NCBI GenBank assembly: GCA_027068915.1 | Contig: JAMOLT010000011.1 | Coordinates: 1-38,972 of the forward strand | Length of the DNA stretch: 38,972 nucleotides | Direction of reading: 5' to 3' | Source: Sedimenticola sp. | Lineage (GTDB): Bacteria; Pseudomonadota; Gammaproteobacteria; Chromatiales; Chromatiaceae | Part shown: positions 18,536 to 23,038 of the stretch, piece after piece | How positions within the stretch are numbered: position 1 is the stretch's first letter | Layout of the letters: every line of letters begins with the position of its first letter | The notes under the pieces: model-generated | Databases searched by the model: none | Seen by the model: only the letters and a program-made list of their open reading frames with translations | What the model was told of the DNA's origin: nothing | Made by a program: the position numbers and the translations under genes

Positions 18536-18716
18536 AGGCCTATTTACCTTCAATGCATCTTATTAATCAGAAACACATTATACGCGCTTGCCTGGTTCAA
18601 TACTAACCACGGTCTCCACTATTGATCCGGCAACCATGCCACAAATCAAGGTCATGGCAGGCAAGCTTGTTTACAATAGATTCATATTCAACGCACAAAC
18701 CCGAGGAGTAGCAGAC

Positions 18717-19202
18717 ATGATCAAGCAAGTGGAAGGCGATATCCTGCTTACAAAAGCACAGGTTATTGCCCATGGTGTTGCCGCCATGGACCCAATGAAT
18801 CAGGGACTGGCCAAGTCCTTGCACGAAAAATATCCTGCCATGCACAAGGATTTCCATCATTGGTGCCACCAGCATCACCCAAAGCCTGGTGAAACCTGGA
18901 TGTGGGGCGGCCCCGATGGTGTCCGCATCGTCAATCTGATCACCCAGGACGGTGGCTACGGCCGTGGCAGCAAACCGGAACACGCGACCATTCAGCATGT
19001 CAATCACGCCCTGAAAGCCCTACACAAAATGGCAATAAAAGAAAAATTCACCTCCATCGCACTACCTCGTCTGGCTACAGGCGTTGGCGGCTTGGACTGG
19101 AGTGATGTAGAACCATTGATCAACAAACATCTTGGCGATCTGGACATCCCCATCTATGTATACGCTGTCTATCACGCCGGGATGCAGGCAAAGGACGAAT
19201 AG
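18717..19202 (+). CDS. Macrodomain protein, TARG1/DarG-like
   Basis: This 161-residue single-domain protein probably binds ADP-ribose or removes it from modified targets. It opens VEGDILLTKAQVIAHGV, with the macrodomain strand 1 and loop. The later ALPRLATGVGGLDWSDVEPLI is characteristic of the TARG1/ALC1/DarG branch, which uses a Lys/Asp pair rather than the MacroD catalytic loop. I chose ATG 18717 because GAGGAG at 18703-18708 is ideally spaced. The frame is open to 18588 without support. No DarT-like toxin adjoins it, so it is not a darTG locus. The substrate is unknown. Confidence 0.82.
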   Translation: MIKQVEGDILLTKAQVIAHGVAAMDPMNQGLAKSLHEKYPAMHKDFHHWCHQHHPKPGETWMWGGPDGVRIVNLITQDGGYGRGSKPEHATIQHVNHALKALHKMAIKEKFTSIALPRLATGVGGLDWSDVEPLINKHLGDLDIPIYVYAVYHAGMQAKDE

Positions 19203-19314: not shown

Positions 19315-19401
19315 GCCGAGGTGGTGAAATTGGTAGACACGCTAGCTTCAGGTGCTAGTGGGGGCAACCCCGTGGAGGTTCAAGTCCTCTCCTCGGCACC
19401 A
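19315..19401 (+). tRNA. tRNA-Leu (CAG)
   Basis: The 87-base gene includes an encoded CCA (19399-19401). The acceptor stem GCCGAGG pairs with CCTCGGC (19391-19397). The anticodon stem CTAGC/GCTAG encloses TTCAGGT, with anticodon CAG at 19349-19351. A long variable arm (GGGGGCAACCCC region) marks a class II tRNA. The T arm AGG-TTCAAGT-CCT is standard. The last 26 bases are repeated at 21816-21841, so the gene is the integration site of a small island and its 3' end is the left copy of the repeat. Confidence 0.97.
19376..19401 (+). repeat. Left attachment repeat (attL) in tRNA-Leu
   Basis: These 26 bases, including CAAGTCCTCTCCTCGGCACC, are identical to 21816-21841. The identity stops on both sides, as expected for a site-specific recombination core. 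Confidence 0.85.
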
Positions 19402-19426
19402 TTTTACTAGACCATCATAAACCTCG

Positions 19427-19455
19427 AAAAGCACTGTATTTACAGTGCTTTTTTT
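19427..19455 (+). terminator. Island-borne terminator for tRNA-Leu
   Basis: AAAAGCACTG (19427-19436) pairs with CAGTGCTTTT (19443-19452) around a 6-nt loop, and the T-run extends to 19455. It replaces the original tRNA terminator, now 2.4 kb away at 21852-21879. Confidence 0.85.
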
Positions 19456-19505
19456 GTGTTTGTAAATTCATTCCGTTGTCTCCCATTGTCTCTGAATGTC
19501 GCTTT

Positions 19506-19524
19506 GTGGAACGTGGGTGGAACG
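19506..19524. repeat. Paired GTGGAACG motif, left end of island
   Basis: GTGGAACG occurs at 19506-19513 and 19517-19524, one helical turn apart. The same pair with the same spacing lies near the other end at 21737-21755. These are candidate integrase arm-type binding sites. Confidence 0.55.
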
Positions 19525-19566
19525 CAGATCGGTAGTTTTCGTTTCCAAAATATGCACGTTCACTGC

Positions 19567-19866
19567 TCATGATTTGGACGCATGGACCTCGTTAACCGAC
19601 AAAGAATGTGTCCCCACTCTTCCTTGCAAAGCCTGCCGAACAAACTGCATCGACGCACTCTCATTTGACTCGACGAGTTGTCGAACCTGATCGGACATAT
19701 CGTCGATTTTATTCAACCTGGTTGCAGCATCCATCGCCCGGTCATAAGCCTCCACAACATCGGCGCTGGTCACTTCATAACCCCACCCCTGACTCAATGC
19801 CATCGCGGAGCCGAGAGCAAATACCGGTTCGGTGTCAAGGTAATCCCGTGCCACCCTTGTCAGCAT
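19567..19866 (-). pseudogene. Unrecognised protein remnant in the island
   Basis: The frame encodes 99 residues from ATG 19866 (MLTRVARDYLDTEP...). It stays open for about 17 further codons upstream, with plausible protein sequence (LLALELANRS) but no start codon or ribosome site, until an in-frame TAA near 19930. This suggests the 3' part of a gene that lost its 5' end. The peptide is alpha-helical and acidic with no motif I recognise. It is opposite in direction to hipBA. It could be a cut-down cargo or mobility gene. Confidence 0.4.
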
Positions 19867-19983
19867 TTTCGGATCACAGTGGCTTCGGTTGGCAAGCTCC
19901 AGTGCCAGTAAGTTAGAGGTACAGACTATTTATGCCAACCTTACCGATATAAGAGCATCATGCTTCGCATACGACAGGGCCTG

Positions 19984-20106
19984 TATTAATACCGTACGTG
20001 AACTATTATGGGTCATTTCCTAATAATTACGATATTTATCACGTACAGGATATTTTTCTTGATTTACACCAAATTTATTGCTATTTTTTACCGTACGATA
20101 CAATTA
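19984..20106 (+). promoter_or_regulatory. hipBA promoter with three candidate HipB operators
   Basis: Three similar AT-rich sites are centred on CGTAC at 19993, 20042 and 20092, spaced 49 and 50 bp, about five helical turns. The middle one reads TATC-N8-GATA (20037-20052), close to the E. coli HipB operator pattern TATCC-N8-GGATA. A promoter TTGATT (20059-20064) with TATTTT (20082-20087), spacer 17, lies between sites two and three. Autorepression by HipB is inferred from the family. Confidence 0.55.
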
Positions 20107-20119
20107 TTGGACTAAAAAG

Positions 20120-20413
20120 ATGAAAAAAAATGATGTCTCTTACGGGCGGATCCAGTCGGCTGAAGACCTCGGCCAGCTTGTGCGTGCCCACCGCAAAAGT
20201 AAAGGATTGACCCTCGAAAGGGTCTCCGGACTCGGTAACCTGAGCACCCGGTTTCTATCTGAGTTCGAACGCGGCAAGGAAACTGCCGAGATTGGAAAAA
20301 TTCTGAAGGCTTTGCGAACCCTGGGGCTGGACATCATCGTTCAACCAAGGGGAGGAGCAACCCCCTCCTCTCACAGTCCATACCCGACCAAAACCAGATC
20401 AGGACAATCATGA
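20120..20413 (+). CDS. hipB: HipB antitoxin, Xre-type repressor
   Basis: This 97-residue DNA-binding antitoxin binds and neutralises HipA and represses the operon. The helix-turn-helix is visible in LGQLVRAHRKSKGLTLERVS...LSTRFLSEFERGK (about residues 17-54). A beta strand LDIIVQPR and a disordered tail (PSSHSPYPTKTRSGQS) follow. I chose ATG 20120. The frame is open back to 20078, but that start lies upstream of the predicted transcript. The stop overlaps the hipA start by four bases (ATGA). Confidence 0.88.
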   Translation: MKKNDVSYGRIQSAEDLGQLVRAHRKSKGLTLERVSGLGNLSTRFLSEFERGKETAEIGKILKALRTLGLDIIVQPRGGATPSSHSPYPTKTRSGQS

Positions 20414-21657
20414 CCGACCGGGATGCACTCAATGTCTGGTTTGGCGATCGCTTGGTGGGATACTTGTGGCGAAATCCAGTCGGTGCCATTGGATTTCGTT
20501 ATGAGCCTGATTGGATCAACAACAATGGCTTCGCCATCTCGCTCACACTCCCTCTCACAATAGAAGACTTTTCCTGCGATGCCAGCGTTGCTCATCGTTT
20601 TTTTGCCAATCTGCTGCCCGAGGGTGGTGCCCGGGAACACATTGTTCGCGATCTGAAAATTCCCTATACCGATTTTGACTTGTTGCGCGCCATCGGTGGC
20701 GAGTGTGCTGGCGCACTCTCTATTCTGCCTGTGGAGCGCAACCCATCAGACGATCGAAGTTACCGCCCCCTCCCAGGTAAGGAACTGGCCCAACTGATTG
20801 CTCGGCGCGGCCAGATTTATGCGGCTTGGCCGAAGGATAAACGGCCCCGGCTATCATTGGCAGGTGCTCAGGATAAATGCCCGGTGTTGATCCGGGATGG
20901 TCACTATTTTCTTCCCGAGGGCGAAGCGCCCACCAGTCATATCCTGAAATTCGAGTTGACGGACTATCATCATCTGCCGGCCTATGAAACATTTACCAGC
21001 TTGCTTGCCAGACAAATCGGGTTGCCCGTCGTCGATATCGAATTGCATTCCATTGAAAAGCGTTTCTATGCGCAGATTGGGCGCTATGATCGCGTATGGG
21101 ATGAACACGGTGAAGTGCAACGTCTACACCAGGAAGACTTTTGTCAGGCACTTGGCTACGGGCACGAAAAAAAATACCAGGATTCCGGCGGCCCAACCTT
21201 TGCTGAATGCTACCAATTACTGCAGGGTGCTTCGACGGATCCTGCCATTGATACACAGAATCTCCTGCGCTGGCAGATTTTCAATCTCCTGGCCGGCAAC
21301 TCGGATGGCCATGCCAAGAACCTGTCGATACTATATCTACCAAGCGGCGAGATTCGTCTGTCTCCCTTCTATGATCTGGTTTGTACGCGCGCCATCGAAC
21401 GAATCGACACTCACCTCGCCTTCGATATTGGCAAGCAAAGAGACCCAGGGCAAATCACCACAAAACACTGGGCGTCGCTGGCCGGAGAATGCGATGTGGG
21501 TTCACGTTTCCTGATCGGGCTGGTAGAAGAGACGGCAACCTCGTTACTGGAACAAATCGGACAAGCAAAGGCGCTGTTTGAAGAGCAATACGGTAAATAT
21601 CCATCACTGCAACGCATCGAGCGTATTGTCATACAGCAATGTCGCCGTGCCACCTGA
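20410..21657 (+). CDS. hipA: HipA serine/threonine kinase toxin
   Basis: This is a 415-residue toxin kinase. In E. coli, HipA phosphorylates glutamyl-tRNA synthetase and induces persistence; the target here is unknown. The N-terminal subdomain (about 5-105) precedes the kinase core. The conserved loop is SLAGAQDK (149-156), where S149 corresponds to the autophosphorylation serine. K180 matches the ATP-binding lysine. NSDGHAKN (297-304) supplies catalytic D299 and N304, and FYDLV supplies metal-binding D322. All key residues are intact, so the toxin looks active. It is translationally coupled to hipB and is the last gene of the island. Confidence 0.93.
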   Translation: MTDRDALNVWFGDRLVGYLWRNPVGAIGFRYEPDWINNNGFAISLTLPLTIEDFSCDASVAHRFFANLLPEGGAREHIVRDLKIPYTDFDLLRAIGGECAGALSILPVERNPSDDRSYRPLPGKELAQLIARRGQIYAAWPKDKRPRLSLAGAQDKCPVLIRDGHYFLPEGEAPTSHILKFELTDYHHLPAYETFTSLLARQIGLPVVDIELHSIEKRFYAQIGRYDRVWDEHGEVQRLHQEDFCQALGYGHEKKYQDSGGPTFAECYQLLQGASTDPAIDTQNLLRWQIFNLLAGNSDGHAKNLSILYLPSGEIRLSPFYDLVCTRAIERIDTHLAFDIGKQRDPGQITTKHWASLAGECDVGSRFLIGLVEETATSLLEQIGQAKALFEEQYGKYPSLQRIERIVIQQCRRAT

Positions 21658-21736
21658 ATGTAATACAACAAGTGTCCTGGATACGCTAAAAAGTCTGGAT
21701 CAAGACCGGGCAAACAGGGCCTCGGCAAGAATCAAC

Positions 21737-21755
21737 GTGGAACGTGAGTGGAACG
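21737..21755. repeat. Paired GTGGAACG motif, right end of island
   Basis: GTGGAACG occurs at 21737-21744 and 21748-21755, with the same 11-bp register and orientation as the left pair. It lies about 60 bp inside the right attachment repeat. Confidence 0.55.
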
Positions 21756-21815
21756 AAGACAAATATCAGAGTTATAACATGTTGTTTTATATATTAAATA
21801 TAGGTATTTTAAGGA

Positions 21816-21841
21816 AGGTTCAAGTCCTCTCCTCGGCACCA
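21816..21841 (+). repeat. Right attachment repeat (attR), tRNA-Leu 3' fragment
   Basis: This is an exact copy of the last 26 bases of tRNA-Leu, including the encoded CCA, with no tRNA 5' half before it. It marks the original chromosomal junction. Confidence 0.85.
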
Positions 21842-22765: not shown

Positions 22766-22796
22766 TGATCACAGCTCCTTGTAGATCAGATTTGTT

Positions 22797-22972
22797 CTAG
22801 TGTACTGCGTCTGTACTGCGTCGGAATTAAAGACCCTCAGTGAGTCACAATGCGGCCAGATGCAAGGCGTGCTGCCACCCCTTTCAAGCGAGTATAACAC
22901 TGCAGATGGCCGCATTGTGGGCCACCCGAAGGAACCCTTGAAAGAGCCTTTAATTCCGACGCAGTACACTAG
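22797..22972. mobile_element. 176-bp MITE with CTAG ends
   Basis: Terminal inverted repeats CTAGTGTACTGCGTC...GGAATTAAAG bound the element. The left copy has an internal 11-bp duplication (22801-22811 and 22812-22822). Internal arms CACAATGCGGCCA and TGGCCGCATTGTG also pair, so the whole unit can fold into a cruciform. It contains no gene. CTAG at both outer edges fits TA duplication at a CTAG target, as known for IS630-family elements. Confidence 0.75.
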
Positions 22973-23038
22973 CACAGCCCGATTGGGGTGTGCTATAAAT
23001 ACAGCGGCCATACACCACCATTCCGGGAGAGTTTTTTC

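Follow-up and report, generated by a model that had tools for sequence, protein, structure and literature searches.

A Sedimenticola sp. genome (GCA_027068915.1; own assembly G000, 2.83 Mb in 61 contigs) carries, at the 3' end of its tRNA-Leu(CAG) gene, a 2,440-bp unit (19402-21841) that encodes the toxin-antitoxin pair HipBA and no integrase. We conclude that this unit is very probably a cis-mobilizable element (CIME), derived by internal deletion, and without an integrase of its own, from a family of integrative elements whose members enter the 3' end of tRNA-Leu(CAG) by means of a tyrosine integrase of the Arm-DNA-bind_2 type. This reading is based on relatives that share the same ends, two of which carry an intact integrase together with genes of PFGI-1-class integrative and conjugative elements (ICEs). 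The window, by which we mean the whole stretch of 38,972 nucleotides that was analysed, is the whole of contig C11, and the unit and its target are made up of the following features.

19315..19401, plus strand: tRNA-Leu(CAG) gene, the integration target, its 3' end forming the attL core (ARAGORN)
19376..19401, plus strand: attL core, 26 nt (exact repeat; exact empty site in G010)
19475..19492, plus strand: two TTGTCTC boxes at core offsets +74 and +84 (+84/+94 in most relatives having them)
19506..19528, plus strand: left tandem GTGGAACG box, putative integrase arm-type site (repeat search)
19567..19908, minus strand: 3' remnant of a 420-codon left-end gene ('DUF420'), aligned to residues 304-420, reading open to the stop and start lost by deletion
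19909..19918, no strand: internal-deletion junction
19995..20105, plus strand: hipBA upstream region with ACCGTACG/CACGTACAGG boxes, predicted autoregulation operators (alignment of three genomes)
20120..20413, plus strand: hipB-like antitoxin gene, 97 aa (Pfam HTH_31, NCBIfam TIGR03070)
20410..21657, plus strand: hipA toxin kinase gene, 415 aa (Pfam, PDB relatives, aligned residues)
21737..21759, plus strand: right tandem GTGGAACG box (repeat search, pattern scan)
21816..21841, plus strand: attR core, 26 nt (exact repeat; exact empty site in G010)

Insertion at tRNA-Leu(CAG) and the empty site

The tRNA-Leu(CAG) gene is the single tRNA gene that ARAGORN detects across the window. Its last 26 nt are repeated exactly at the far side of the unit (26/26 nt for 19376-19401 vs 21816-21841, and 28/29 over 29 nt), and a 24-nt core taken from this repeat has only these two copies in the 2.83-Mb genome with up to three mismatches allowed. 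The only contents of the unit with family or homology support are hipB, hipA and a gene remnant on the left (ORF99). Neither an integrase nor an excisionase was present among the open reading frames (ORFs) of the 2,440-bp unit, as judged by ORF and family-profile checks, and conjugation or mobilisation genes were likewise absent from these ORFs, oriT not having been searched for. An earlier interpretation made from the letters alone (the sequence-only reading) had described just such an integrase-less hipBA unit of about 2.4 kb between 26-bp direct repeats, one of them the tRNA-Leu 3' end, and this description is confirmed.

Integration into the tRNA gene with hipBA as cargo, also part of that reading, is supported by an exact empty tRNA-Leu(CAG) site of the kind it had proposed to look for in related genomes. 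In G010, which belongs to the same genus, the tRNA is immediately followed by what lies beyond attR in the window, and the joined window flanks match G010 at 455/549 positions in one ungapped block across the junction. This site contradicts the view, which we regard as extremely improbable, that hipBA entered independently of any integrative element or that the repeat is a tRNA duplication. Relatives of hipBA are indeed found away from such ends, and neither the core nor the box described below lies near any of the 10 other hipA loci checked (L009-L012, L244-L249). However, this view is also opposed by a further conserved repeat pair with fixed spacing and by the occurrence of these ends in 21 additional genomes, and a tandem tRNA duplication was rejected because the second repeat copy lacks the tRNA 5' part. 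Within the genus (15 genomes, own plus 14), the left end of the family is present in three (G000, G005 and G006) and other sequence follows the tRNA-Leu in eight (G001, G004, G007, G008, G009, G010, G013 and G014), with no call for the remaining four (G002, G003, G011 and G012).

A truncated left-end gene marks an internal deletion

The minus-strand ORF at the left of the unit (ORF99, 19567-19866), the origin of which had been overlooked in the sequence-only reading, is the last part of a 420-codon gene. Full copies exist in G006, G177 and others, where this is the first left-end gene and is read towards the tRNA; seven copies (including L022 1386-2648, L120 4950-6209, L154 316-1563 and L226 16799-18046) share 70-86% identity, and the gene has no match in Pfam, NCBIfam, PADLOC or PHROGs. 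Homology to the left end stops at position 19908 of the window and homology to the hipBA side of G006 begins at 19918, and we therefore conclude that the sequence in between was removed by an internal deletion.

Neither of the two close hipBA relatives, G006 and G177, shows the fused junction of left-end gene and hipBA, and both have lost part of the right end. In G006, hipBA is followed by a core without the right box and then by a second left end with the full 420-codon gene. The 120 nt upstream of its hipBA contain no left-gene sequence, so that the window deletion is not common to G006 as far as the contig shows. In G177, which belongs to another family (HyVt-429), the 420-codon gene is complete; it is accompanied by hipBA and by what remains of a transposase, judged ISL3-like by eye, and the right box is present but the right core is missing. 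HipA of G006 is 89% identical to that of the window, with a synonymous divergence (dS) of 0.29 for hipA vs 0.08 for rnr, 0.145 for the macro-domain gene and 0.21 for the ligase gene. Against G177, dS is 0.46 for hipA and 0.51 for the left-gene remnant, while Rnr is only 52% identical at the amino-acid level and its synonymous sites are saturated; from the near-equal values for hipA and the left end next to a far diverged Rnr we conclude that ends and hipBA moved together between families.

A second repeat pair defines the ends of an element family

Inside both ends lies a further direct repeat pair that was missed in the sequence-only reading, GTGGAACGTGGGTGGAACGCAGA (19506-19528 and 21737-21759), in which GTGGAACG is repeated in tandem with a period of 11 bp. 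The pattern GTGGAACGTNNGTGGAACG has two copies in the own genome, both inside the unit, and none in the other 110 of the 111 relatives scanned, the reversed control pattern also giving none.

Family members were found by scanning with the box pattern, which yielded 31 genome stretches, and with a left-end pattern, which yielded 6 of 369 class genomes including our own. Eighteen of the box-pattern stretches have the core (at most four mismatches) and one more, L146, has the left-end gene remnant; the other 12 (Leifsonia, Prevotella, Haladaptatus and others) have no core and were taken as chance, and G150 was dropped from the left-end scan with no core at up to five mismatches. A viral origin was rejected, the box pattern occurring in six and the left-end pattern in three viral contigs and the core in none of these nine. 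The same ends were found in 21 other gammaproteobacterial genomes, including an endosymbiont of Escarpia laminata; most of the genomes compared are draft metagenome-assembled genomes (MAGs).

The geometry of the ends is largely conserved across these hosts. A right box was found 5' of 13 of the 34 family cores, always with a box-core gap of 60-62 nt, and a left box after 18 of the 34, the first copy lying at +116/117 in 16, at +127 in one and at +105 in the window, whose left end is therefore one 11-bp step shorter. From their place, their spacing and the arm-binding domain of the family integrase, we infer that the GTGGAACG boxes may be integrase arm sites.

Integrase-bearing relatives, ICE genes and tandem arrays

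The contiguous right-end order in G439 and G441 is AlpA, integrase, HTH, HipA, box and core, which puts the integrase at the far (attR) end and not next to the tRNA, where the sequence-only reading had expected it. The integrase has Arm-DNA-bind_2, SAM-like and Phage_integrase domains and was detected at E<=1e-50 in 7 of the 21 other carriers: it is full length and open in G433, G436, G439 and G441, interrupted by a stop in G446 and G356, and partial in G438. It was not found at this threshold in the other 14, absences that are soft because many carriers are draft assemblies. A search of the 369 class genomes at E<=1e-90 returned G356 (74% identity, broken) and two proteins at 46-47%, and 11 of the 111 relatives gave an integrase match at E<=1e-20, the best 42% identical, none of which was accepted as the family integrase. 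The core was absent from 20 integrase or nearby stretches of 12 genomes (own G000, nine of the genus, G026 and G039). Plasmid and phage relatives of hipA and of the family integrase all have less than 60% identity.

A PFGI-1-class ICE block adjoins AlpA in G441 and G433. Both encode the PFGI-1 ParB (TIGR03764) and TIGR03761 proteins, and TIGR03759 and PilL2 were seen in G441. Elements of the family also occur in tandem: five cores in G433, G435 and G437 have the right box before and the left-end signature after them, to which the arrangement in G006 is added. On contig C22 of G433 (77813-225442; L188-L192, L234), four collinear tRNA-Leu cores at 77.8, 166.9, 212.5 and 225.4 kb span 148 kb with intervals of 89, 46 and 13 kb, and the array includes two integrases of the family type, whose identity to that of L132 is 91% and ~50%. 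Defence-like cargo of family elements L226 (G443), L135 (G441) and L154 (G447) comprises type IIG restriction-modification with a DrmD/HKD-Snf2-like helicase, Gabija GajB and a TmtA-like protein.

The own genome has no family integrase at E<=1e-20 in its 61 contigs, its four PF00589 proteins being XerD, XerC, an integron integrase and an XerD-like fragment, and the search for a resident integrase with a core matching the repeat, as the sequence-only reading had suggested, found none. These absences, including those in 14 of the 21 other carriers, bear on a reading that we consider unlikely, in which the 2.4-kb unit is itself a selfish mobile form, a minimal satellite of att sites and toxin-antitoxin genes spread in trans by integrases of family ICEs. 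Several observations would fit such a satellite, namely the identical cores, the retention of both box pairs with an intact right-end geometry, the transfer of the hipBA unit between families, and the recurrence of reduced integrase-less toxin-antitoxin units, as in G434 (4.2 kb, AbiE) and G177 (DUF420, insertion sequence remnant and hipBA). However, the minimal form was not encountered a second time: the own genome has the core nowhere but at the two ends of this unit, the junction is in neither G006 nor G177, the deletion is not shared by G006 in the 120 nt upstream of its hipBA, and G006 has lost its right box. The proposal that the unit is a satellite mobilised in trans is thus not supported, whereas its companion, a deletion remnant, is borne out by a left end fused to a truncated gene with full copies in relatives, and by relatives with integrase and ICE genes. 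The further suggestion of a class of minimal tRNA-targeted addiction elements holds in so far as reduced integrase-less toxin-antitoxin units do recur in the family, but they do so as decay products of larger islands.

The hipBA pair

Neither gene is truncated, and hipB, the upstream one, overlaps hipA by 4 nt; the two are presumably co-transcribed. HipB is barely over the cut-off of Pfam HTH_31 and matches TIGR03070 with an E-value of 4.3e-14 that lies under the curated cut-off of that model, and HipA matches HipA_C (E 5.1e-49) and the N-terminal Couple_hipA (E 1.9e-24) in Pfam and has relatives in PDB (2wiu, 4pu3 and others). HipA residues S149, D299, N304 and D322 align with S150, D309, N314 and D332 of E. 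coli HipA, which we take to be catalytic. Three comparisons gave a dN/dS of ~0.2 for hipA, and three ACCGTACG/CACGTACAGG boxes 5' of hipBA, probably autoregulation operators, are kept in the window, G006 and G177 while the neighbouring sequence diverges. Judging from the kept residues, the dN/dS and the conserved upstream boxes, HipBA looks functional, and it probably helps to retain the unit at the tRNA.

The same three lines of evidence speak against the idea that hipBA and the att sites are functionless fossils kept by chance, to which we give a low probability. Such a fossil would be in keeping with the truncated left-end gene, the missing integrase, a left box 11 nt nearer the core than in relatives, and the loss of one right-end part already in G006 and in G177, but would not be expected to preserve catalytic residues, a dN/dS of this order, or upstream boxes within sequence that is otherwise not conserved. 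No viral relative of HipA was found. L024 in G012 (same genus) encodes a HipBA 65% identical to that of the window inside an ICE-like block with a PFL_4669-type protein, a RadC-like and a ParM-like protein, and no tRNA-Leu core was seen near it.

Toxin-antitoxin pairs at the right end of the family

At 15 right ends with at least 1 kb of upstream sequence, we scored which complete gene set lies closest to the box or core on its inner side, leaving out two ends with too little upstream sequence (L130 and L230, less than 0.5 kb) and two whose core has neither the tRNA 5' part nor a right box (L237 and L239). A toxin-antitoxin pair holds this position in 10 of the 15, a raw count with no background rate for island edges: it is a HipBA of the window type in the window, G006 and G177, another HipA type in G439, G441, G438 and G435, and AbiE in G443 (antitoxin under Pfam cut-offs), G434 and G440. 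The count is favoured by G006, which entered the census via its hipA, and G177 and G435 are two different right ends of the same genome. A HipA 3' remnant was found at two of the 15 (G436, and G433 at 166.9 kb), and neither at three: in G433 an alanine dehydrogenase gene stands at the 212.5-kb core and an integrase gene (49% identity), with a HipA-like gene deeper inside, at the 225.4-kb core, and in G446 there is a gene for a PFL-like protein. At a left end, in G026, a Gp49/HigB-like toxin gene lies 0.85 kb after the core, followed by the contig end.

A toxin-antitoxin edge in unrelated hosts, built from two unrelated toxin families, provides a testable case that addiction modules at the edge decide which remnants persist. 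Tentatively, and with the odds rather against it, we suggest that a toxin-antitoxin slot may be kept at the attR edge of the family, so that any internal deletion or array collapse would leave a self-stabilising unit with two working att sites. Fragments with only a toxin-antitoxin pair (HipBA here, AbiE in G434) would then be recurrent, excisable when a family ICE enters, and starting points from which tandem arrays of defence islands could be rebuilt at tRNA-Leu(CAG); if true, they would represent a degradation-proof, re-mobilisable minimal state and not a dead end.

Flanking sequence

A macro-domain protein is encoded immediately 5' of the tRNA (18588-19202) and has the same position in most genus genomes checked here. 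On the other side, a ligase gene is also found 3' of the tRNA in G014, but the spacer has diverged. Between the ligase and PEBP genes of the window lies a ~180-bp palindromic repeat (22793-22976) with nested inverted arms of 26 nt (92%) and 19 nt (95%), which looks like a miniature inverted-repeat transposable element (MITE) or a repetitive extragenic palindromic (REP)-type element and has a partial relative on own-genome contig C9 (L027 ~1803-1927).

Discussion

According to our interpretation of the unit as a CIME, an ancestor would have inserted at the tRNA and created the two cores, as shown by the exact empty site, and a later deletion would have brought the region upstream of hipBA up against the final ~115 codons of the left-end gene, as shown by the comparison with relatives. 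The lost segment may have included the integrase and transfer genes in the window lineage, and the unit now consists of attL, attR, the two pairs of GTGGAACG boxes and hipBA. Lacking an integrase, such a unit would be locked in, and could be excised or moved within a tandem array only with an integrase supplied by a family element of the same core specificity, while cells losing it would be poisoned by HipA outlasting HipB, which is likely to favour retention.

Several observations weigh against this interpretation. No integrase-bearing intermediate was seen in the window lineage, and G177 is also without an integrase, so that the element could have moved already integrase-less. The HipA at the right end of the integrase-bearing relatives is a different HipA (28% identity over the aligned part), which means that the window unit did not arise by trimming precisely those elements; furthermore, G433 and G436 have extra cargo between HipA and the right core, with a HipA 3' remnant preceding that core. 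In G441 the ICE block is on one contig and the tRNA end on another, most genomes are draft MAGs, and the boxes are assigned to the integrase by geometry alone.

CIMEs as a kind are already known, whereas this element family and its toxin-antitoxin edge appear undescribed; literature searches in open-licence papers found none describing either, which is not proof of absence. On this account an apparent oddity, an 'integrase-less island', is placed as a dated stage of decay within a named element family, and what outlasts that decay becomes visible.

The defining passages of PMC5704250 and PMC7563491 describe CIMEs as derivatives of ICEs or integrative and mobilizable elements (IMEs) that have lost the genes for integration and transfer and kept attL and attR, and it is by this definition that we class the unit. 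With regard to the att sites, it has identical 26-nt cores, both box pairs and an exact empty site, the function of the sites being predicted; with regard to its descent, it has a truncated left-end gene and relatives with integrase and ICE proteins, the direct parent not having been found. Two of the integrase-bearing relatives resemble PFGI-1-class ICEs in their PFGI-1 ParB and PFL_4669-type proteins (NCBIfam), whereas the window unit has none of these genes. The classical CIMEs in ICE/IME tandems of Streptococcus salivarius, as presented in PMC7563491, measure 1.2-13 kb, a range that includes the window unit, and likewise combine gene loss and retained att sites with tandem accretion in the same att site. 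They differ in belonging to another phylum, in using another integrase and in residing beside a functional ICE, whereas the window unit stands alone, with a toxin-antitoxin pair beside attR as its sole intact cargo. Among the ssrA islands of Dehalococcoides, 15 without an integration module were proposed as CIMEs according to the account in PMC3146451; these also target an RNA gene and form tandem islands bounded by 3'-end repeats, but they depend on a serine recombinase, sit at ssrA and carry reductive dehalogenase genes. Finally, CGI48/GI21 of Shewanella putrefaciens CN-32, as outlined in PMC8978831, differs from the unit described here in being composite, 48 kb long, inserted in tRNA-Trp and equipped with integrases of its own, but it too is a tRNA-integrated island that carries HipAB, and its stabilisation by HipAB was measured, deletion of hipAB permitting the island to be lost after forced excision.

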